DNA of 46,562 nucleotides, from the NCBI GenBank assembly GCA_018400535.1, contig JAGYMQ010000096.1, positions 1-46,562 on the forward strand. Reading direction: 5' to 3'. The notes beneath the pieces were generated by a model, which had not been told where the DNA came from, did not search any database, and saw only the letters and a list, made by a program, of their open reading frames with translations. This DNA comes from Candidatus Cloacimonadota bacterium (GTDB lineage Bacteria > Cloacimonadota > Cloacimonadia > Cloacimonadales > TCS61). The first letter of the stretch is position 1. The number at the start of each line of letters is the position of its first letter. A program made the translations under genes and the position numbers. Positions 3,001 through 13,699 of the stretch are shown here, one piece after another.

Positions 3001-5269
3001 GCAATTTGACTCACTCGGAAATTTCACCGTGAGGATCTTTGCCGATAAACAAGCTGATGGTTCTGAAATTTTCAATGAGATCGATGAGACAAATAATTAT
3101 GTTGACCTCTATATTCACGTTTACGAAGAAAGCCCCGATCTGGAAGTTCTTTCTCAATATATTGCTCCCGAAGAATTGAATCCTGATCCGAACGAAGAGA
3201 TTGCGATCTTTGCTTCAATTTTCAATCAGGGAAATATTGATACTGATCCTTTCTGGGTGAGAATTCTGGTCGATGATGTTGTGCTGGATGATTCGATCTA
3301 TATCGAATCACTGCCTGCTCTGGAAGATACAACGGTTGTAAGCAATCAGCTCTATTCTTCTGCTGAGATCGGAACACATACAATTTGCGTGGAAGCCGAT
3401 TACAATGATCTATTGCCAGAATTTGATGAAACCAATAATGAAGCTGTCAGAAATATCATCGTGGGCGAAGCTCCCGATCTTGCCTTTACTGATGCTGGCA
3501 TTATCCTGTCCGATGAAGAACCAGAACAAGGTGATCTGATCACGATTTCTGCTTTTGTCAAAAATACAGGCGGCGCAGAAGCAAACGGAAATGTGAACTG
3601 GAATTATGTGATCAATGCTGATACAACACTGATCAATTCATCGAATTTCTCTGTTGCTCCACAAGATTCTGCCTATGTCTCTTTGCAATGGTTCACCGCT
3701 GTTCCTTTCGGAACCATCTTTGCTGAGATAGTCAACGCCAGTCCGGAAGAATTCAATACTTTGAATAATTCTGCTGTGGTCGGCTTTGGCAGCACAATTC
3801 AGCAGATTGGCACGATTAACGCCGTGAACGTGGCTGAAGATGAAAGCAATTATGTGGCAGCTGAAATGGACAGCATTTTCCAGAATGTGGATGAAACTCC
3901 CTTGAGCTATTATTTTAACGCATCGAATGATAGCATTTTGATCTCGGTCGACAGCGAAAACCAATTAGTCTTGAATTTCATCACAAACTGGTTTGGAAGC
4001 GATGAGTCGTTCACGGTTACAGCAGAAAATATTTATGGCGATACCATATCGACAACAGTTTCGATAACGGTCAATCCGGTAAATGATGCCCCACAAATTC
4101 TTTTACCAGCTTCGATCACAACTTATGAAGATTCTGTGAAAATTGTGGATTTCAGCAATTTTGTTTCTGATCCCGAACAAGCGTTAACCGAATTAACTCT
4201 TACCTGCACGGAAAGTGATACGATCAATATTCAAATAGATGGACTTCAAGTTACCTTTTCTGCAGCAGAAAACTGGTATGGAATGGAAACGATCGAATTC
4301 AGCATCGACGATAATCAGGACAGAGGAATTTCTTATGATGACGTCATCGTTATTTTCAATCCAGTAAACGATCCGCCAACTATCGAATTGCCATCAGAAT
4401 TTTCTTTTGAAGAAGATCAATCGCAATTATTTGACCTAACAAATTATATCAATGATGTTGATAATGACCTTTCCGAACTTGCTCTCTCTTCGTCTGGAAG
4501 CGAACATATCAGCGTGGAAATTTCTGATTTGTTTATAACTATTTCTTCTAATACTCAGCATTGGAATGGAAACGAAATGATCTTTATTTCAGTTTCTGAT
4601 GATGCATCCCGCTCGGCTCGCGGAGATCGTGAAAGCATTTCTGATTCTGTTATGGTCCAATGCATACCCGTTGACGATCCACCAGAATTTGATCTGCCCC
4701 AATCACTCATCTTTGGACCAGGAGAAATGCGACAGCTTGACTTCGATCAATATTTGAACGAATATGACGGAGACGACCTTTTCATCCAATATATGGGAAA
4801 CTCGAACATAATTGTTTCTAATGATTCCCTGCTCTATTCTTTCTCGGCGCAGGATGATTATCTGGGCTGCGAGAATATTCTCTTCATCGTTTATGATGGA
4901 ACCACCTTTGCTCCAGATCAAATCGCAGTTTGTTCCTCAATCGTTCCTCAAGATGTCCGACTCGAGCTGGTGGGAAGTGATGTCGAAATTAGCTGGAGAG
5001 AGATCATGGCAGCTTCTTCCTACAAAGTTTATTGTTCCGATTCGCCTGAAGGAATTTTTACGGAAGTGACGACAGGTTCTTTTTCGCAGATAGAAGATCG
5101 TTTATATTGGCATGATACCTTCACCGAAGATAAACAATTCTATCGTGTAACAGCTTTTGTGGAAGAAACTACTCGTGGAAATTGTAACAAACAAGAAATT
5201 GACATTGATGAAGAACTGAAAGAAAAAATTCGCAAAGCTTACGAAGAAATGTATGGAATAAAAAGATAA
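2..5269 (+). CDS. Giant multi-domain surface/secreted protein, N-terminus cut off by window edge
   Basis: The frame is already open at base 2, so the GTG at 80 is probably internal and the true start lies upstream. Numbering from that GTG, residues about 12-105 and 110-205 are two HYDIN/choice-of-anchor-D-like Ig repeats (FGNVVVDDFSN..I.LTNTGN). Residues about 341-1235 hold a series of CARDB-like Ig repeats with recurrent starts such as PDLEVLSQY and ADLKINS, interrupted at about 450-565 by another Ig-like module and a proline-rich linker. Residues about 1240-1620 are cadherin-like tandem repeats marked by NPVNDAPQ, NPVNDPPT and PVDDPPEF. Residues about 1625-1700 look like fibronectin type III, followed by a short charged tail. 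No enzyme domain and no sorting domain is visible. The likely role is an extracellular adhesin or structural protein; the ligand is unknown. A strong terminator follows directly. Confidence 0.85.
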   Translation, partial: SAGLRNVDKTKENQKETDRATSTETKVDYITVTGAQLAINPSSLEFGNVVVDDFSNIDIELTNTGNEDILIDSTFAVTPFTVSSNYNTTLSPSQTLSFPVTFQPTATLFYDEQLIIATDIDTFYVDLTGTGVAPTPAWSFNWTSHDFGQTDIDSGTSTNITISNTGNVDLIVSDCNVSDSHFDVSETSFLLEVGDSQNITVSFDPEEILSYNGVISYTSEAGTQELNVSGNGFYQSAAPVLSYVVETRFDGTTGVEPEIGAPGTYFEYRITYTDADNDAPMTGFPQVGIDKNGDHDFLEPDEFMMPLTEIDPTDTSYDDGKEYSFITQLPEDADLGYAFTAYDVLGNPAIGEGTNYKSGPDVTDDYLDLSIYANDITFSESNPDVGDEVVINAVIHNNSDYPADSILIRIYEEDILLEETTIGYLGAQSQTSISIEHIFTAPEYYPIKVVIDEDNVIAEVNELNNFAIRPIVVGNYSVPGAIAATSYLNSSSAYSGGTLRFYGNAEYVETRLRNSVVSGAQVELTISGNGQTWTYTGYTNASGNYSIYFAAPQNLGSYTASAEVTDFTFTTQTSVHNFSVVSPPPSGYPPQQDDLADLKINSCSLSGNPVINNMMEISGSFSNIGDLPAENVKLYLYLDNVLSDSIFIDFLSVDESESYSFYQTWTTVGNHNVSVIVDPFDTVSEYIEYNNSASLSRYIYPEYADLTPVDILFDDNSPLTDQEITITGIIQNLNYIASDATTVEIYDVFSAEGRSESLLGIVNLEPINNNATQNIYFDHTFTAAGLHQIKLVVDPDDLVDESDETNQIIYEAIDVEAPTAELTISAINVSNTNPDVGDAINFSATISNIGSNDAENFEVVFRLDDVQIGSNIPISSLAAGDNQIINSDAWIFDADPHTIEAVIDEADVIPELNEYNNETEKEIGIDLQARKNAIYPGNSSSNPLNIQMGTVVELKSRIYNHGTFAAENVPISYWIEDQLLEMDFVPLINNGVFIQSNIFMQFDSLGNFTVRIFADKQADGSEIFNEIDETNNYVDLYIHVYEESPDLEVLSQYIAPEELNPDPNEEIAIFASIFNQGNIDTDPFWVRILVDDVVLDDSIYIESLPALEDTTVVSNQLYSSAEIGTHTICVEADYNDLLPEFDETNNEAVRNIIVGEAPDLAFTDAGIILSDEEPEQGDLITISAFVKNTGGAEANGNVNWNYVINADTTLINSSNFSVAPQDSAYVSLQWFTAVPFGTIFAEIVNASPEEFNTLNNSAVVGFGSTIQQIGTINAVNVAEDESNYVAAEMDSIFQNVDETPLSYYFNASNDSILISVDSENQLVLNFITNWFGSDESFTVTAENIYGDTISTTVSITVNPVNDAPQILLPASITTYEDSVKIVDFSNFVSDPEQALTELTLTCTESDTINIQIDGLQVTFSAAENWYGMETIEFSIDDNQDRGISYDDVIVIFNPVNDPPTIELPSEFSFEEDQSQLFDLTNYINDVDNDLSELALSSSGSEHISVEISDLFITISSNTQHWNGNEMIFISVSDDASRSARGDRESISDSVMVQCIPVDDPPEFDLPQSLIFGPGEMRQLDFDQYLNEYDGDDLFIQYMGNSNIIVSNDSLLYSFSAQDDYLGCENILFIVYDGTTFAPDQIAVCSSIVPQDVRLELVGSDVEISWREIMAASSYKVYCSDSPEGIFTEVTTGSFSQIEDRLYWHDTFTEDKQFYRVTAFVEETTRGNCNKQEIDIDEELKEKIRKAYEEMYGIKR

Positions 5270-7407: not shown

Positions 7408-9855
7408 ATGAATAAATTAAAAATTCTTTTTGTAGATGATTCACCCAACGATGTAGAAATTGTAGCTCGCGAAATTTCCAAACACTATATCGGTTTCTGC
7501 CACCAGGTGGTCAATAACGCAGAAGATTTCACGAAAACTTTGACTGAATTTAGACCCGACATCATTATTTCCGACCATTCAATGTCAGATTTTGACGGCT
7601 TGAACGCTTTAAAAATAACCAGAACAAATTACAAAAACAAGCCATTCATAATACTCACTGGTGTTATGGACGAAGAATTGCTAATCTCCTACTTGGAAGC
7701 AGGAGCAGATGATTGTTTAATCAAAAAGAACTTCCGTCTTCTACCCTTTGCCATAAAAAAAGTATTAGCCAACAGAAAAACAAGAAAAAAACTGGAGAAA
7801 CAAGCAAAAACAATTGATGAGTTACAAAGGCAACATGATACAGATCGGAATGCAACAAAAGATCTGCAGAGCACAGATGATGTATCGATGAAAACTAAAG
7901 AAGCTTTGCTGGCATATGAGATAAAGTTCTCTGATCTTATCGAATCATCTAATGATGGTATTTGCTTGCATGACCTACAGGGCAAGATCCTTTTCGTGAA
8001 CCAAAGAAAGGTCGAAATGCTGGGTTATAAATCCACAACTCAACTGATCGGCACAAATGCTTACGATTTGCTAAGAAAAAGTGAACAGCAAAAATTTTCT
8101 GAACTTTTTAAAGAATTGCTAAAAAAAGGCTTTCTCGCTAATATCGAAACGAAGGTTATTAGAAATGACGGATCTCTATTGCCAGTTGAATGTAATTTCA
8201 AACTTATTATGAATGATAAAGGCAAACCCCACTTTATTATGGATACGATGCGAGACATCACCGAGCGCAAACTGGCAGAGGCAGAATTGAAATCCCATCT
8301 GTCTCTTCTGCAGATTGCCGGCGAGACTGCCCGTTTCGGCGGCTGGAGCGTCGATCTGCAAAACAATATCTACACCTGGTCGGATGCGGTGGCGGATATT
8401 CACGAAATGCCGCACGGATTTGCGCCAAAAGTGGAAGAAGGCATAAATTTCTATGCACCCGAGTGGCGGGAAAAGATCACGGATGTTTTCTCCGCTTGCG
8501 CCGAAAAAGGCATTCCCTATGATGAGGTGATGGAGATCATCACCAAAACTGGCAAGCGCCTCTGGGTGCGCGCCACCGGTAGAGCTGTAAAAAATGAAAA
8601 AGGTGAGATCAAACGCGTGGAAGGCTCCTTTCAGGATATTAACGAGAGCAAACAAGCAGATGATGCTCTGCGTGAAACTGAAGAGCGATTTCAGAAAATG
8701 TTGTCTTTAGTACCGGACATGATTTCCATTCATGATACTGATATGAATATTGTTTATAGCAATTGGAACGGTTTCGGAGCAGTTCAAGAAGATAAAAGGG
8801 TTTTGAATACCAAGTGTTACGAAACTTACAGGGGCTTTGATGATATATGTCCCGATTGTCAGGCAAGAACAGTTTTACAAACTAAACAAGCTTATCAAAA
8901 AGAACTGGAAATGCCTGATGGTTCATGGAAAGATCTGCGTGTCATACCAATTATAAATCAGGATGGTTCAGTAGAGCTTTTTGTGGAATGGGTCAGAGAT
9001 ATCACCGAACGCAAGAAATCCATGGCAGCCTTACAGCAGATCGAATGGATGTTATCAGAAAAAAAGACAAAGGACGACGATTTTACGCCGGAATATGGCG
9101 ACCTGAGTGAGCTTAACAAAAACGGGTTGATTCTCTCCTCAGTCGGGAAAGACCAGTTAACACAGATTGCTTCGGAGTATCTTGATCTGCTGGAGACCTC
9201 GTCTGCCATCTATGAAATAAACGGTGATTATGCTTTGGGTTTGTTTTCTTCCGGCTGGTGCAGGATGATGGATACGGCATCGCGTAAGCTATGTGAAACT
9301 GATGACAATCAGCAAGCCTTGAATTGCGGTAAATGGCTGTGTCACGAATCCTGCTGGCGGGATGCCTCGTTGCAGGCTATTGAGAGCGGCAAACCTGCCG
9401 ACGTGGAATGTAATGGCGGCATTCGTCTTTATGCTGTTCCTATCCGTGCCGGTGGGCAGGTGATCGGTGCTATCAATTTCGGTTACACCGATCCGCCTGA
9501 ATCTGATGTCGAACTTCAGAAATTGTCCGAGCTCTATCAGATTCCGATCGAAAAATTACGAAAAGAAGGGCAGGAATATCAGACGCGTCCTCAATACATT
9601 ATAGATTATGCAAAAAAACGAATTCAGTTTTCGGCTCAGTATATTGCAAATATAGTAGAACGTAAACAGGCAGAGACAGAATTGCGACGTATGAAAGATG
9701 ATCTGGAAATTCAGGTGGCCGAAAAAACCAGGGAACTTCAGGAAAGAATCGAAGAACTCGAACGCTATCATGATGCCACCGTAAATCGCGAATTCCGCAT
9801 CAAGGAACTGAAAGATGAAATTGCCAGGCTGAAAGAGGAAAAAGATGAGAGATGA
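7408..9855 (+). CDS. Response-regulator/PAS/PocR multi-sensor signalling protein without kinase or output domain
   Basis: An 815-residue cytoplasmic protein. ATG 7408 is preferred over GTG 7402 because the GAGGTG Shine-Dalgarno overlaps that GTG. Residues 3-123 are a receiver domain with the acidic VDDSPND patch, phospho-acceptor D56 (IIISDHS), T in ILTG and K in LIKK. Three PAS domains follow at about 168-288, 298-418 and 422-538, each closed by a DIT/DIN-E-(R/S)K motif; the third contains a CPDC pair. Residues about 573-755 match a PocR-type ligand-sensing domain with clustered Cys (NCGKWLCHESCW), which may bind a small molecule or metal. A coiled coil ends the protein. No HisKA, HATPase, GGDEF or DNA-binding domain is present, so it probably relays signals to a partner such as the downstream kinase. 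No transmembrane segment is seen. Confidence 0.85.
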   Translation: MNKLKILFVDDSPNDVEIVAREISKHYIGFCHQVVNNAEDFTKTLTEFRPDIIISDHSMSDFDGLNALKITRTNYKNKPFIILTGVMDEELLISYLEAGADDCLIKKNFRLLPFAIKKVLANRKTRKKLEKQAKTIDELQRQHDTDRNATKDLQSTDDVSMKTKEALLAYEIKFSDLIESSNDGICLHDLQGKILFVNQRKVEMLGYKSTTQLIGTNAYDLLRKSEQQKFSELFKELLKKGFLANIETKVIRNDGSLLPVECNFKLIMNDKGKPHFIMDTMRDITERKLAEAELKSHLSLLQIAGETARFGGWSVDLQNNIYTWSDAVADIHEMPHGFAPKVEEGINFYAPEWREKITDVFSACAEKGIPYDEVMEIITKTGKRLWVRATGRAVKNEKGEIKRVEGSFQDINESKQADDALRETEERFQKMLSLVPDMISIHDTDMNIVYSNWNGFGAVQEDKRVLNTKCYETYRGFDDICPDCQARTVLQTKQAYQKELEMPDGSWKDLRVIPIINQDGSVELFVEWVRDITERKKSMAALQQIEWMLSEKKTKDDDFTPEYGDLSELNKNGLILSSVGKDQLTQIASEYLDLLETSSAIYEINGDYALGLFSSGWCRMMDTASRKLCETDDNQQALNCGKWLCHESCWRDASLQAIESGKPADVECNGGIRLYAVPIRAGGQVIGAINFGYTDPPESDVELQKLSELYQIPIEKLRKEGQEYQTRPQYIIDYAKKRIQFSAQYIANIVERKQAETELRRMKDDLEIQVAEKTRELQERIEELERYHDATVNREFRIKELKDEIARLKEEKDER

Positions 9856-9871
9856 GAGATGAGAGACGAGA
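9844..9871 (+). repeat. Four tandem heptamers (GATGAGA-like) across a stop codon
   Basis: GATGAGA occurs three times in tandem followed by GACGAGA. The array begins inside the last codons of the PAS/PocR gene and contains its stop codon (9853-9855), so slippage here would change the protein tail. The purine-rich sequence continues to about 9930. Confidence 0.7.
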
Positions 9872-9960
9872 CTTGGAGAAGATGAGAAGTTGGAAGATTG
9901 GAAGATGTGAAGCAAAGAAGCAGAGTAGGTTGGAAGATATGATTGTAAATATAAAATGTC

Positions 9961-9995
9961 ATCCTGAGTTCGGCTTTTGCCGATTATCGAAGGAT
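9961..9995. repeat. Two-part hairpin element ATCCT..TCGGC-TTTT-GCCGA..AGGAT
   Basis: The inner stem TCGGC (9970-9974) / GCCGA (9979-9983) closes a TTTT loop. The outer arms ATCCT (9961-9965) and AGGAT (9991-9995) also pair. It has the look of a dispersed intergenic repeat; only one copy was noticed in this window. Confidence 0.55.
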
Positions 9996-10044
9996 AGAGA
10001 TGAGTGGTCAGAGGTCAGAGATCAGAATATTCTGAATAGAATAG

Positions 10045-10064
10045 CCACGAGTTTCAACTCGTGG
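10045..10064. repeat. REP-like palindrome CCACGAGTTTCAACTCGTGG
   Basis: A perfect 9-bp stem with a TC loop. It has the same length and outer arms (CCACGAG/CTCGTGG) as the palindrome at 12930-12949 at the 3' end of the RAYT gene, which suggests both belong to the REP family mobilised by that enzyme. Confidence 0.75.
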
Positions 10065-10085
10065 GTTGAAAGATTGAAAAAATTG

Positions 10086-10099
10086 GGGGTTTTAACCCC
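10086..10099. repeat. REP-like palindrome GGGGTTTTAACCCC
   Basis: GGGGTT and AACCCC pair around a TT centre. The same 14-mer is present at 12431-12444 and 13205-13218, within the direct repeats either side of the RAYT gene. Confidence 0.75.
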
Positions 10100-10196
10100 A
10101 AAATTGGTGAAAATGAGAGATGAGAAGCTTAGAAGATGGGAAAAAAATTAATCACAATATTCGCATTCATCTGCGGTTAAAAAGAAAGAAGGAAAT

Positions 10197-12371
10197 ATGA
10201 ATCTGAGTTGTTTTAAAATTTTAATTATCCTGTTCTTGATCTTATCTTTAACTGTATTATCTGCGAGTGAGATAGAATCCCAGAAAACCGAATTCACCCT
10301 ATCCGACACCATCCACATCGCTTCCGAACCAGATTATCCGCCCTATTGTTTTGTAAACGAAACCGGTGAAGCAGCCGGCTTTTCCATCGATTTGTTTAAA
10401 GCAGCAGCAGCGGCTGTAGATTTAGATGTTAAAATCAAGATCGGCATCTGGAGCAGGATCAAACAAGACCTGGCAAAAGGCAGGATCGATGCGCTGCCGC
10501 TGGTGGGCAGAACTCCCGAACGGGAAGAATTCTACCATTTCACCATGCCTTACATTTCTTTGCACGGCGCCGTATTCGTGCGCAAAGGCACCAAAGATAT
10601 CCATTCACTTGCCGATCTCAAACACAAAAGCATAGTCGTGATGGAAGGCGATAATGCCGAAGAATTTGTGCGCAGGGAGAAGATCTCCGATGAGATCGTC
10701 ACCACGAAAACGTTCGAAGAAGCCTTCATAGCGCTGGCAAACGGACATCACGATGCGATTATCACACAGCGCATCATGGGTTTGAATCTTCTGGAAGAAT
10801 TGAAGATCAAAAATGTAGAAGCTCTGGATTTTCATATTCCCCAATTCCGTCAGGATTTCTGCTTTGCAGTGCAAAAAGGCAACGCGCAATTGATTTCCCG
10901 CCTGAACGAAGGACTTTCTATAATTATTGCTGACGACACATTTGAACAAATCCGCAATAACTGGTTTGGTCACACTCTGAAGGAACATATTGCTTTCAAA
11001 GACGTGTTGCGTTATCTCCTGATTATTCTCATTCCTTTTATTATCATAATCGCTGTCGGTGCCATCATTTTGTTGCGCAAGGAAGTCAAACGTCAAACAG
11101 AAGGCTTGAACAAAGAAATTGACGAACATAAAAGAACTCTGAAAGCATTGCAGGCCAGCGAACAGAAATATCGCAGCATGGTCGTCAATCTGATGGAAGG
11201 TTTTTACAGCGTGACACTGGATGGCAGATTGCTGGATTATAATCTCGAATTCGTTAAAATCTTCGATCTTGATCCCGATAAAGATCATACCGGTTCAAAT
11301 CTACCCGATTTCTGGCAGGATCCGGCCGATCGAAAAATCTATGTGCAGGAACTTCTGGAACATGGAGTTATCAAAAATTATGAAGTCAATGCCCAAAAAA
11401 CGGATGGAACCAGGATCGTGGTGATGGTGAATTCCCGTCTTGTAAAAGCTAAAAGCGGCCAGCCAGTCAGGATCGAAGGCAGCTTTCTCGATATTACAAA
11501 ACGCAAACAGGCTGTGGAAGAGTTACAGAAATTGAAAGATGATCTGGAGGAACTCGTGGCAAGGCGCACCGCCGAACTTGAAGAGAAAGTGCAAAAGCTG
11601 GACAAAAGCGAAAAAGCCATGCTCTACATGGTGGAAGACCTGAATTCTCTTACTGGCGAATTGAAAGAAGAACGCCAGAAACTGCTGATCTCCAATCAGG
11701 AACTGGAAGCTTTCACCTATTCTGTATCACACGATCTGCGAGCACCGCTGCGTGCGGTGGACGGTTTCAGCAAGTTCTTGCTGGAAGATTATGCCACTAA
11801 ACTGGGTGAAGAAGGAAAAAGATACATCGATGTTATTCGCGCTAATGCATTAAAAATGGATAAACTGATAACCGATTTGCTCAGTCTGTCTCGCATTTCC
11901 CGCGCCAATATGAATCTGACGCAGGTTGATATGAAAGAAATTGCGAAGTCAATATATCACGAGATAGCCAGCGAAGAGGAGAAAAAAGCTTTTCAGATCA
12001 GTATCGCAGAGATGCCGCCGGCTATCTGCGATAACACACTTATCAAACAAGTTTGGCAAAATCTGATAAGTAATGCCCTCAAATACAGTTCCAAATCTGA
12101 AGTAAAACAAATCGTGATCTCCGCGCTGGAAGAAGATGATTTCGTCGTTTTCAGCATCAAAGATTACGGAGTTGGTTTCAATAATATATATATGGACAAA
12201 TTATTCGGCGTTTTTCAGCGATTACACAGTGAAAATGAATTTCCAGGAACCGGAGTAGGATTGGCTATTGTGAAACGCATTATTCAACGTCATGGGGGCA
12301 AAGTGTGGGCAAAGGGAAATATCGGTAAAGGAGCGAAATTCTATTTTTCACTGCTACGAATTGAGAAGTGA
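10197..12371 (+). CDS. Sensor histidine kinase with periplasmic SBP-type sensor and PAS domain
   Basis: A 724-residue membrane kinase. A signal/anchor segment (1-23) precedes an extracytoplasmic family-3 solute-binding domain (about 35-265; IASEPDYPPYCF, GFSIDLFKA, ALPLVGRTPERE). A transmembrane helix at about 273-293 and a PAS domain (about 320-437) follow, then a coiled coil, a HisKA domain with phospho-acceptor H512 (YSVSHDLRAPLRA) and a HATPase_c domain with N-box N626, G1 DYGVGFN and G2 GTGVGLAIVKR. The architecture resembles BvgS/EvgS sensors but lacks receiver and Hpt domains; separate receivers lie up- and downstream. The ligand is probably an amino acid or similar small solute, inferred from the domain family. 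Start ATG 10197 is preceded by AGAAGGA. Confidence 0.92.
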   Translation: MNLSCFKILIILFLILSLTVLSASEIESQKTEFTLSDTIHIASEPDYPPYCFVNETGEAAGFSIDLFKAAAAAVDLDVKIKIGIWSRIKQDLAKGRIDALPLVGRTPEREEFYHFTMPYISLHGAVFVRKGTKDIHSLADLKHKSIVVMEGDNAEEFVRREKISDEIVTTKTFEEAFIALANGHHDAIITQRIMGLNLLEELKIKNVEALDFHIPQFRQDFCFAVQKGNAQLISRLNEGLSIIIADDTFEQIRNNWFGHTLKEHIAFKDVLRYLLIILIPFIIIIAVGAIILLRKEVKRQTEGLNKEIDEHKRTLKALQASEQKYRSMVVNLMEGFYSVTLDGRLLDYNLEFVKIFDLDPDKDHTGSNLPDFWQDPADRKIYVQELLEHGVIKNYEVNAQKTDGTRIVVMVNSRLVKAKSGQPVRIEGSFLDITKRKQAVEELQKLKDDLEELVARRTAELEEKVQKLDKSEKAMLYMVEDLNSLTGELKEERQKLLISNQELEAFTYSVSHDLRAPLRAVDGFSKFLLEDYATKLGEEGKRYIDVIRANALKMDKLITDLLSLSRISRANMNLTQVDMKEIAKSIYHEIASEEEKKAFQISIAEMPPAICDNTLIKQVWQNLISNALKYSSKSEVKQIVISALEEDDFVVFSIKDYGVGFNNIYMDKLFGVFQRLHSENEFPGTGVGLAIVKRIIQRHGGKVWAKGNIGKGAKFYFSLLRIEK

Positions 12372-12395
12372 AAGATCAGAATTCTTTTGAATAGC

Positions 12396-12448
12396 GCTTC
12401 AGCTCGGGGATAAAAAGAGTATAAAAAAACGGGGTTTTAACCCCGGAA
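12396..12448 (+). repeat. Flanking direct repeat, left copy
   Basis: The segment runs from GCTTCAGCTCGGGGATAAAA through a run of A to GGGGTTTTAACCCCGGAA. It matches 13169-13222 with essentially a single-base indel in the A/T-C junction. The GGGGTT/AACCCC hairpin ends only 2-3 nt before the Shine-Dalgarno of the RAYT gene. Confidence 0.85.
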
Positions 12449-12458
12449 GGAGGACAAG

Positions 12459-12962
12459 TTGCCATTTATCAGAATCTGGATTCATCTGATCTGGTCGACA
12501 AAAAACCGGCAACCGTTGTTAACAGCGAAACTTCGCCCACAGATTTTTTCTCATATCCGGGAAAATGCAGAAGAAAAAGGCATTTATTTGGATTTCATTA
12601 ATGGTTATAAAGATCATGTTCATTTGTTGATTTCTTTGAATCAAACGCAATCGATAGCGAAAATAGTTCATGATCTCAAAGGAGAATCTTCACATTGGAT
12701 CAATCAGAATAAATTTTCCAAATTCAAGTTTAGCTGGCAGGAAGAATACTTGGCTGCTTCGGTCAGTCATTCAGCAGTAGATAAGGTTAGGAATTATATC
12801 AAAAATCAAGAAGCGCATCATAGAATAAAAACCTTTGCTGAAGAATATGATCTCTTTATAAAGAAATATGGATCCGGATTGATGAAAAATGAAGGGTTAA
12901 AACCCAACTTGGGTTCGGGTGATTTTGATCCACGAGATAAATCTCGTGGCAATTCGAGATAA
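12459..12962 (+). CDS. REP-associated tyrosine transposase (RAYT, IS200-like Y1 HUH family)
   Basis: A 167-residue protein of the Transposase_17/Y1 family. The HUH metal-binding motif is H53-V-H55 (KDHVHLLISL) and the catalytic Tyr is Y113 in VRNYIKNQ; the family cuts and joins single-stranded DNA at hairpins. The start is TTG 12459, supported by AAGGAGG five nucleotides upstream and by the conserved beginning PFIRIWIHLIWSTKNR. Residues after about 137 are not part of the usual fold: they are translated from the palindromes at 12894-12915 and 12930-12949, giving a REP-encoded tail ending DPRDKSRGNSR. RAYTs are usually single-copy, domesticated, and linked to REP elements. Confidence 0.88.
   Translation: MPFIRIWIHLIWSTKNRQPLLTAKLRPQIFSHIRENAEEKGIYLDFINGYKDHVHLLISLNQTQSIAKIVHDLKGESSHWINQNKFSKFKFSWQEEYLAASVSHSAVDKVRNYIKNQEAHHRIKTFAEEYDLFIKKYGSGLMKNEGLKPNLGSGDFDPRDKSRGNSR
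12894..12915. repeat. Overlapping palindromes GGGTTAAAACCC / AACCCAACTTGGGTT
   Basis: GGGTT (12894-12898) pairs with AACCC (12901-12905), and that same AACCC with the next two bases also pairs with TTGGGTT (12909-12915). The two stems are mutually exclusive. Both lie inside the 3' coding end of the RAYT gene. Confidence 0.65.
12930..12949. repeat. REP-like palindrome CCACGAGATAAATCTCGTGG
   Basis: A perfect 9-bp stem with an AA loop, within the RAYT reading frame where it encodes part of DPRDKSRGN. It is the sister of the palindrome at 10045-10064. Decayed half-copies (ATCTCG, GAGATAAATCTC) continue to about 13000. Confidence 0.75.
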
Positions 12963-13255
12963 ATCTCATTCAAAATCTCGGCAATTCAAAATCTCGCAAT
13001 TCAGAGGTTTGAAAAGAAACGCAGGAAATTTTAAGAAGATAAAATGAGAAATAGAAATGGGAAATGATAGTTCAGAATTCAGAATTCTTTGAATTGCCCG
13101 GTGATATCTGCACTCATCAAAATTTTAGCTGCACAGTTCAGGATTCAGAATTCTTTGAATTGCCCCGTGCTTCAGCTCGGGGATAAAAAGAGTATAAAAA
13201 AATCGGGGTTTTAACCCCGGAAAGAAAAAAATCTAATTAACATAAGGAATTTATT
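12963..13255. other. 293-nt repeat-rich gap downstream of the RAYT gene
   Basis: No gene is seen. It contains degenerate ATCTCG repeats (12963-13000), a 23-nt direct repeat ATTCAGAATTCTTTGAATTG followed by CCC at 13077-13099 and 13143-13165, an imperfect hairpin CCCCG-T-GC-TTCA-GC-T-CGGGG (13163-13182) and the right flanking repeat (13169-13222). AAGGA before 13256 is the Shine-Dalgarno of the response regulator. Confidence 0.7.
13169..13222 (+). repeat. Flanking direct repeat, right copy
   Basis: Near-identical to 12396-12448. Here the 5' part also completes an imperfect hairpin with CCCCG at 13163-13167, typical of REP sequences with mismatched stems. It ends about 30 nt before the downstream response regulator gene. 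Confidence 0.85.
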
Positions 13256-13699
13256 ATGAAACAAAGCAAAGGTGAAGTCGAAATTTTATTGGTAGAAGAT
13301 AATCCAAACGATGTTGAAATGGCATTACGAGCCTTCAAAAAGAACAATATTACCAATAACATACTAGTTGTAAACGATGGCGAAGATGCATTGGATTATC
13401 TCTATGCTCGAGGAAAATATGACAGCCCTGGGATCAATAATCGACCAAAAATAATTCTGCTGGACCTGAAATTACCCAAAGTGGGTGGGTTAGAAGTATT
13501 ACGCACTCTGAAAACAGACCTAGATAAAAAGATGATACCAGTCATCGTGCTCACCTCTTCTAAAGAGGAACGTGATATTATTGAATCCTATCAACTTGGT
13601 GTGAACAGCTATATTGTGAAACCGGTGAATTTTGATAAATTCGTGGAAGCAGTAAGAGAAATCGGTTTTTATTGGCTATTATTGAATCAGCAGTTGTGA
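13256..13699 (+). CDS. Single-domain response regulator of the Rcp1/CheY type
   Basis: A 147-residue protein made only of a receiver domain. It has the acidic pair in LLVEDNPND, the phospho-acceptor Asp in [13 protein letters not shown] (D72), T/S in VIVLTSS and K in YIVKPV. The insertion [11 protein letters not shown] and the style [10 protein letters not shown] are typical of Rcp1-like regulators that pair with phytochrome-type or hybrid-lacking histidine kinases. With no output domain, it probably acts as a phosphate shuttle or by protein contact. The natural partner is the SBP-PAS kinase 0.9 kb upstream, now separated from it by the RAYT element. Start ATG 13256 has AAGGA upstream. Confidence 0.9.

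Follow-up and report, generated by a model that had tools for sequence, protein, structure and literature searches.

This locus raises the question of what kind of element has placed a transposase gene, together with a set of repeated palindromes, between a sensor kinase and its likely response regulator. The window, by which we mean the whole stretch of DNA that was analyzed, is a contig of 46,562 nucleotides from a Candidatus Cloacimonadota bacterium. On its plus strand Pfam identifies a sensor histidine kinase with a solute-binding domain and PAS, HisKA and HATPase domains (10197-12371) and a single-domain response regulator (Response_reg, 13256-13699). Between these two neighbors, also on the plus strand, stands tnpA (12459-12962), which begins with a TTG start and, as defined by its open reading frame, Pfam, NCBIfam and motifs, encodes a Y1 HuH transposase of 167 aa. 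The reading that we consider probable is that of a REPtron-like element, in which a TnpA_Y1 gene of subclass 1.2 and its own type of REP hairpin have spread mainly locally.

The first-pass annotation had called the gene a Y1 transposase and, more narrowly, a RAYT. The former name is secure, the protein scoring 102.6 bits against Pfam Y1_Tnp (cut-off 23). Two other Pfam hits, on contigs C70 and C55, were rejected: they span just profile positions 32-83 and 36-82 and belong to proteins that are longer and of a different kind. The latter name had to be given up in its narrow sense, since the protein fails the NCBIfam RAYT model (NF047646; 27.1 bits, cut-off 80), passes the IS200/IS605 model (NF033573; 75.4 bits, cut-off 55) and carries the signature of subclass 1.2. 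For the members of set A1 the IS200 model is matched by 10/10 and the RAYT model by 9/10 at E <=0.001, the bit scores in that comparison being those of the window protein alone. The signature, Y---Q--HH, was given for subclass 1.2 by Quentin et al. 2018 (PMC6006769); the window protein has it as YIKNQEAHH (YIKNQ at residue 113), together with the HuH motif of the subclass as DHVH (residues 52-55), and has WQEEY at 93. The Y---Q--HH pattern is found in 79 of 80 named homologs, and the 80th (L106) reads YMKNQETHH and departs from it at its second position alone. We assign the window TnpA to TnpA_Y1 subclass 1.2 by these motifs rather than by the authors' clustering.

The closest solved structures are those of ISHp608 and other IS200/IS605-type transposases. 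Together with the IS200/IS605 model, passed by the window protein and matched by all ten A1 members, they favor an explanation in which the gene belongs to a mobile, selfish insertion sequence of the ordinary IS200-like sort and the terminal hairpins are plain IS ends. Several results disagree with this. A protein search of the genome to which the window belongs found no second full Y1 gene of subclass-1.2 type, leaving one copy, and members of subclass 1.2 have been described as not having the properties of IS (PMC6006769). In addition, tnpA is under strong purifying selection, with dN/dS (NG86) of about 0.06 between the window and G038 (dN 0.168/dS 2.78) and about 0.10 between the window and G031 (dN 0.169/dS 1.72), where the dS values are large and the ratios therefore rough, and of about 0.09 between G038 and G031 (dN 0.021/dS 0.227).

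Two hairpins make up each end of the element. P1, on the outside, is 20 nt long and has an 8-bp stem, a TTYA centre and, at its foot, TWG in an A-rich setting. P2, on the inside, is shorter and palindromic, and its centre resembles that of P1. The repeat search and the hairpin scan place the left end of the tnpA element at 12390-12445 on the plus strand, with foot AATAG at 12390-12394, a P1 at 12395-12409 that has lost most of its left arm, an A-rich spacer and P2 CGGGGTTTTAACCCCG at 12430-12445. The right end, the inverse of the left, was located by the same two scans at 12892-12954 on the minus strand and consists of P2 GGGTTAAAACCC at 12894-12905, P1 CCACGAGATAAATCTCGTGG at 12930-12949 and foot CAATT at 12950-12954. 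This P1 is the palindrome to the right that the first-pass annotation had mentioned, and that observation stands. Flanking by inverted hairpin units is a feature of RAYT genes and REPtrons. The right end lies within the tnpA reading frame; compared with its closest relatives, tnpA has its stop codon displaced, and the C terminus reads through the element's own right-end hairpins (12880-12962), which makes the protein about 24 residues longer than those relatives (144 aa). Judging from the damaged left P1 and the shifted C terminus, the window copy is probably immobile now, though its active-site motifs are intact, and because its left P1 is broken it represents active elements poorly.

Two further left-end units were found on the plus strand. 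One precedes the kinase at 10040-10102 (palindrome and hairpin scans) and comprises foot AATAG at 10040-10044, an intact P1 at 10045-10064 (0 mismatches) and P2 at 10083-10102 with its core at 10086-10099; the other precedes the regulator at 13158-13219 (repeat and hairpin scans) and comprises foot AATTG at 13158-13162, P1 at 13163-13182 and P2 at 13204-13219. The window therefore contains three left-end units, all in the plus orientation, for one tnpA, and this excess of end units over genes also speaks against an ordinary insertion sequence.

These units account for the 53/54-nt direct repeat that had drawn attention to the locus. The repeat search of the window (family D1) confirmed it as an in-register match of 12396-12444 with 13169-13217 that runs on to 12448 and 13222, the right copy having a 1-nt insertion. 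The direct repeat is two out of the three left-end units, each of them a double hairpin, and the unit 5' of the regulator is its right copy. Each copy of the direct repeat contains the 14-nt palindrome GGGGTTTTAACCCC (12431-12444; 13205-13218), which occurs once more, unmentioned in the first-pass annotation, at 10086-10099, 5' of the kinase start. At <=2 mismatches the window has 7 matches, where shuffles average 0.10 and 0/100 get to 7. Counted over the genome (2,620,974 bases in 146 contigs), the exact palindrome has 3 copies, all of them in the window and within 3.2 kb, so that its presumed role as a genome-wide REP was not borne out and a genome-dispersed family of the window's own palindrome was ruled out. 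The search for P1-type sites in a 240,360-bp sample of the same genome gave 1 site, with 0-6 in Markov controls, and an Rfam search of 9800-13400 gave no match.

The repeat could also be explained by plain duplication, tandem or segmental, or by an artefact of the assembly, with a dead transposase in between. The damaged left P1 and the frame shift at the C terminus agree with this, as do the degenerate iterations and the 35-nt duplication found in 12955-13169. The former are iterations of the right terminus (AAATCTC..CAATT) at 12955-13001; the latter was detected by the repeat search (13069-13169) as two foot-containing copies, at 13069-13103 and 13135-13169, flanking a 36-nt stretch at 13100-13135. 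However, the edges of the direct repeat are the edges of a recurrent type of end unit, the third unit has diverged (77% identical) and lies 2.3 kb away, and tnpA combines a low dN/dS with intact motifs. We regard a duplication or artefact of this kind as quite improbable. The right-terminus iterations look like ends that were copied or rejoined repeatedly. The 36 nt at 13100-13135 recur unchanged inside a gene of contig C129 (minus strand, 3426-3461), which we take, by its translation, to resemble a class II aldolase. Lying between foot-containing repeats, the stretch is taken for a gene fragment captured beside a hairpin end. No captured fragment was evident beside the third end unit, where a weak 33-nt match (85%) on contig C107 spans the P1 hairpin itself.

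That the repeats are the transposase's own was confirmed in named homologs, in which the same type of hairpin is enriched beside tnpA. Our survey set consisted of 80 named homologs, the best 80 of 305, with about 5 shared with the first set of relatives; L033, one of the first 30 loci, was left out of the later analysis. A hairpin was counted if it had 20 nt, 9 pairs including the closing T-A, <=1 mismatch and a TTYA or TRAA centre. At least one such hairpin lies within 600 nt of tnpA in 74/80 homologs (best 80 of 305). The density was 269 hairpins in 93,250 bp near the gene vs 22 in 248,185 bp lying more than 1.2 kb away (2.9/kb vs 0.09/kb), an enrichment of about 30-fold in these best 80 of 305 that sets mostly intergenic DNA (near) against mixed DNA (far). 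The Markov expectation near tnpA is 1.8, and of hairpins that share the geometry but not the centre there are 35 near and 28 far. When sites were picked by T[TA]GC[CT] alone, a hairpin was formed at 179/1083 sites near vs 14/1893 far, and 139 of the 179 near hairpins have the TTYA centre. The TTYA hairpin was absent at 6/80 loci, at least two of which (L086 and L093) have TTAA-centred palindromes that were left out of the counts.

The foot was not used in selecting the 231 P1 sites, and at positions -3 to -1 these have T in 90%, A/T in 94% and G in 81%; it is thus T[AT]G following A-rich DNA and not the GTAG type of RAYT genes and REPtrons. The 231 sites represent 108 distinct P1 arms in 71 loci. 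In the covariation analysis, which used 52 of the 108 arms, both partners change in 7/9 pairs, with 27 additional pair types against 13-18 in slid controls; the outermost and innermost P1 pairs never vary and are uninformative on covariation, and the percentage paired in the pair counts is partly circular, the sites having been preselected at <=1 mismatch. P1 stems vary freely through compensatory changes, while the foot and centre are fixed. The orientation of the hairpins mirrors the two ends, with 81 forward and 49 reverse upstream of the gene and 53 forward and 86 reverse downstream. A P2 is present inside the outer P1 at 13/46 left ends and 24/53 right ends (expected 0.05 and 0.04), and P1 lies at a median of 73 nt from the gene on the left side and 54 nt on the right. 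Two tnpA copies in genome G088 (L169 and L170) show the same layout with hairpins of another geometry, an odd palindrome that has a 3-nt centre, and with inner GTCCG..GGAC hairpins.

Could these hairpins be host transcription terminators or mRNA stabilisers, to which the transposase is incidental? In the window, at each copy of the repeat, P2 (12430-12445 and 13204-13219) and the A-rich spacer together have the form of an intrinsic minus-strand terminator, and in two related genomes all 18 of 18 hairpins in the stretches scanned are intergenic (8/8 sites on a 10-kb contig of G031 and 10/10 in 20 kb of G038). Terminator-like matches are limited to the minus strand, however: the sense strand of 12300-13300 has none, and no stop is predicted between kinase and regulator. 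The effect on transcription that the first-pass annotation had thought possible gains no support from them. A terminator also has no need for a conserved foot and loop, and neither the roughly 30-fold enrichment beside tnpA with mirrored orientation on the two sides nor the co-occurrence of P1 with tnpA across genomes fits with an incidental transposase. We judge this explanation improbable, although the hairpins may have a secondary role as terminators.

The co-occurrence was obtained by running a covariance model of P1 (R1) on 40 genomes. All 22 genomes with a tnpA match had at least one P1 match, compared with 8/18 of those without (Fisher p 5e-5; the genomes are not independent). The P1 counts per genome are lower bounds, with <=150 candidates scored in each; they reach up to 25 (G010) in genomes without a detected tnpA. 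The genome to which the window belongs has 10 P1 matches, which is not the high-copy, genome-wide REP of RAYT genes and REPtrons. Three are in the window, five at the ends of contigs C23, C37 and C63, and two, both weak, on C47 and C135. The P1s at the contig ends (L162, L163 and L164) form a second P1/P2 family with other stems, arranged as P1-P2-P2-P1 and partly in tandem, for which no tnpA of subclass-1.2 type was found in the same assembly; their location suggests that this family is multi-copy and broke the assembly. Both this family and the P1 matches in genomes without a detected tnpA count against the REPtron-like reading. Stems like those of the second family (e.g. CCTACGCCTGAAGGCGTAGG) flank the tnpA of L015 and L121.

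Both in the window's own genome and in G038 the end units are clustered close to tnpA. A search of G038 with the 539 bp upstream of tnpA identified 9 places, all on one strand of one contig in a sensor-kinase cluster. The tnpA genes of G031 and G038 are 94% identical and occupy an orthologous place beside kinases, so together with the window these genomes represent two settings, not three. From its position, this orthologous gene looks like a case of vertical inheritance rather than mobility, a further point against the REPtron-like reading. The kinase just 3' of tnpA in G031 shares 51% identity with the window kinase across some 300 residues. Genome G030 has two tnpA copies that are 89% identical, which is in favor of a mobile insertion sequence. 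Their P1 stems differ while the foot and P2 are the same, and the start of their homology is no more than a few nt from the P1 foot; the pair fits recognition of the ends through foot and loop with free stems. The orthologous position in G031 and G038, and end units that vary in number and layout among loci, do not agree with an ordinary IS200-like element, which we hold to be unlikely, though deserving of serious thought.

The REPtron-like reading includes an insertion into a signalling cluster, as the first-pass annotation had proposed, and the synteny comparison supports this. Homologs of the regulator were matched in 22/96 genomes at E <=1e-35, and the surroundings were read for 9 non-self loci out of 33 non-self matches. 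In 6/9 loci a kinase homolog lies directly upstream of the regulator, with gaps of 181, 39, 33, 25, 9 and -4 nt (L175, L176, L179, L180, L181 and L183, respectively), compared with 884 nt in the window; the other three (L177, L178 and L182) have other sequence upstream. A tnpA match or TTYA hairpin was present in 0/9 loci within the flanks examined. Because the pair is contiguous without the element in six of the nine loci, contiguity appears to be its normal state and the element most likely a later arrival that inserted into the kinase-regulator pair. The closest locus without the element, in G037, has a kinase of 66% and a regulator of 73% identity and a gap of 181 nt; its intergenic DNA has no evident similarity by eye to the window flanks. 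The loci compared show no transposition event itself. The best kinase homolog (G009, contig C143) belongs to a genome without tnpA, and the stretch examined stops inside the kinase. A general association of this transposase with kinases did not emerge: a tblastn search with the window kinase domain matched 2/80 named loci, which makes for a weak test, as this query likewise gave nothing in 240 kb of the window's own genome.

We propose that TnpA would bind P1 in its single-stranded form by way of the T-T-x-A loop, that the TWG foot would guide the choice of cut site, and that the protein would cut and rejoin single strands. The outcome would be the placement of end units in neighboring intergenic gaps and the insertion of a tnpA copy between kinase and regulator, by a route that could be either transposition or repair after cleavage. 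Units with the same foot and loop do precede the kinase, tnpA and the regulator in the window, and in G031 and G038 they also occupy several of the intergenic gaps within the kinase clusters. One might go further and propose that TnpA and the hairpins now take part in controlling the signalling operon, TnpA binding the leaders as ssDNA or RNA and so coupling gene expression to its own level or to replication. We consider such control very improbable.

Subclass 1.2 has so far been a puzzle, near the IS200 transposases and apparently with neither IS ends nor REPs. If its members do possess hairpin ends of their own, invariant in the foot and in the TTYA loop, they would form a further, biochemically testable branch of the co-evolution of TnpA and hairpins, intermediate between insertion sequences and REPtrons that have been domesticated, in bacteria with little-studied REPs; what TnpA reads can be predicted directly from stems that vary freely while foot and loop stay the same. 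The literature searched, whose reach left out most subscription papers, contained no report of hairpins for this subclass. In PMC6006769 the subclass is reported as low-copy, generally without terminal hairpins and with REP listed as 'no', and mostly from Cyanobacteria and Bacteroidetes. The element described here resembles that account in its Y---Q--HH, DHVH and WQ motifs, its core of about 145 aa, its low copy number and its nearness to IS200 TnpA. It departs from the generality that subclass 1.2 has no terminal IS200-type structure, since hairpins flank 74 of the 80 named homologs (best 80 of 305), and the named homologs extend beyond Bacteroidetes to Cloacimonadota, KSB1, Ignavibacteria and Neomarinimicrobiota.

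Compared with IS200/IS605 elements such as IS608 and ISDra2, the TnpA family and the subterminal hairpins are shared, but the window element is single-copy, has more ends than genes and has no tnpB among its neighbors (kinase, regulator and MnmA). With the GTAG and CGTC REPs (PMC3733652) it shares short tagged palindromes that are often dimers; unlike them it has neither tag, and the CGTC REPs are without a known transposase. There is a likeness to REPtrons and to RAYT groups 2 and 3 (PMC8266576, PMC3116915) in the domesticated-looking tnpA, the inverted hairpins and the short foot, and a difference in that the foot is TWG and not GTAG, the RAYT model is failed, this genome has no high-copy family, and P1 and P2 are paired at each end. 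The likeness is closest in detail to REPtron Mb, whose TnpA (PMC8266576) requires the loop T-T-N-A, with the first T and last A suggested to pair within the stem, and whose REPs are concentrated near their tnpA. A TTNA loop with a T-A pair closing the stem, and REPs clustered near tnpA, are found here as well, and from this shared geometry we infer that the TnpA of subclass 1.2 may read P1 in the same manner.
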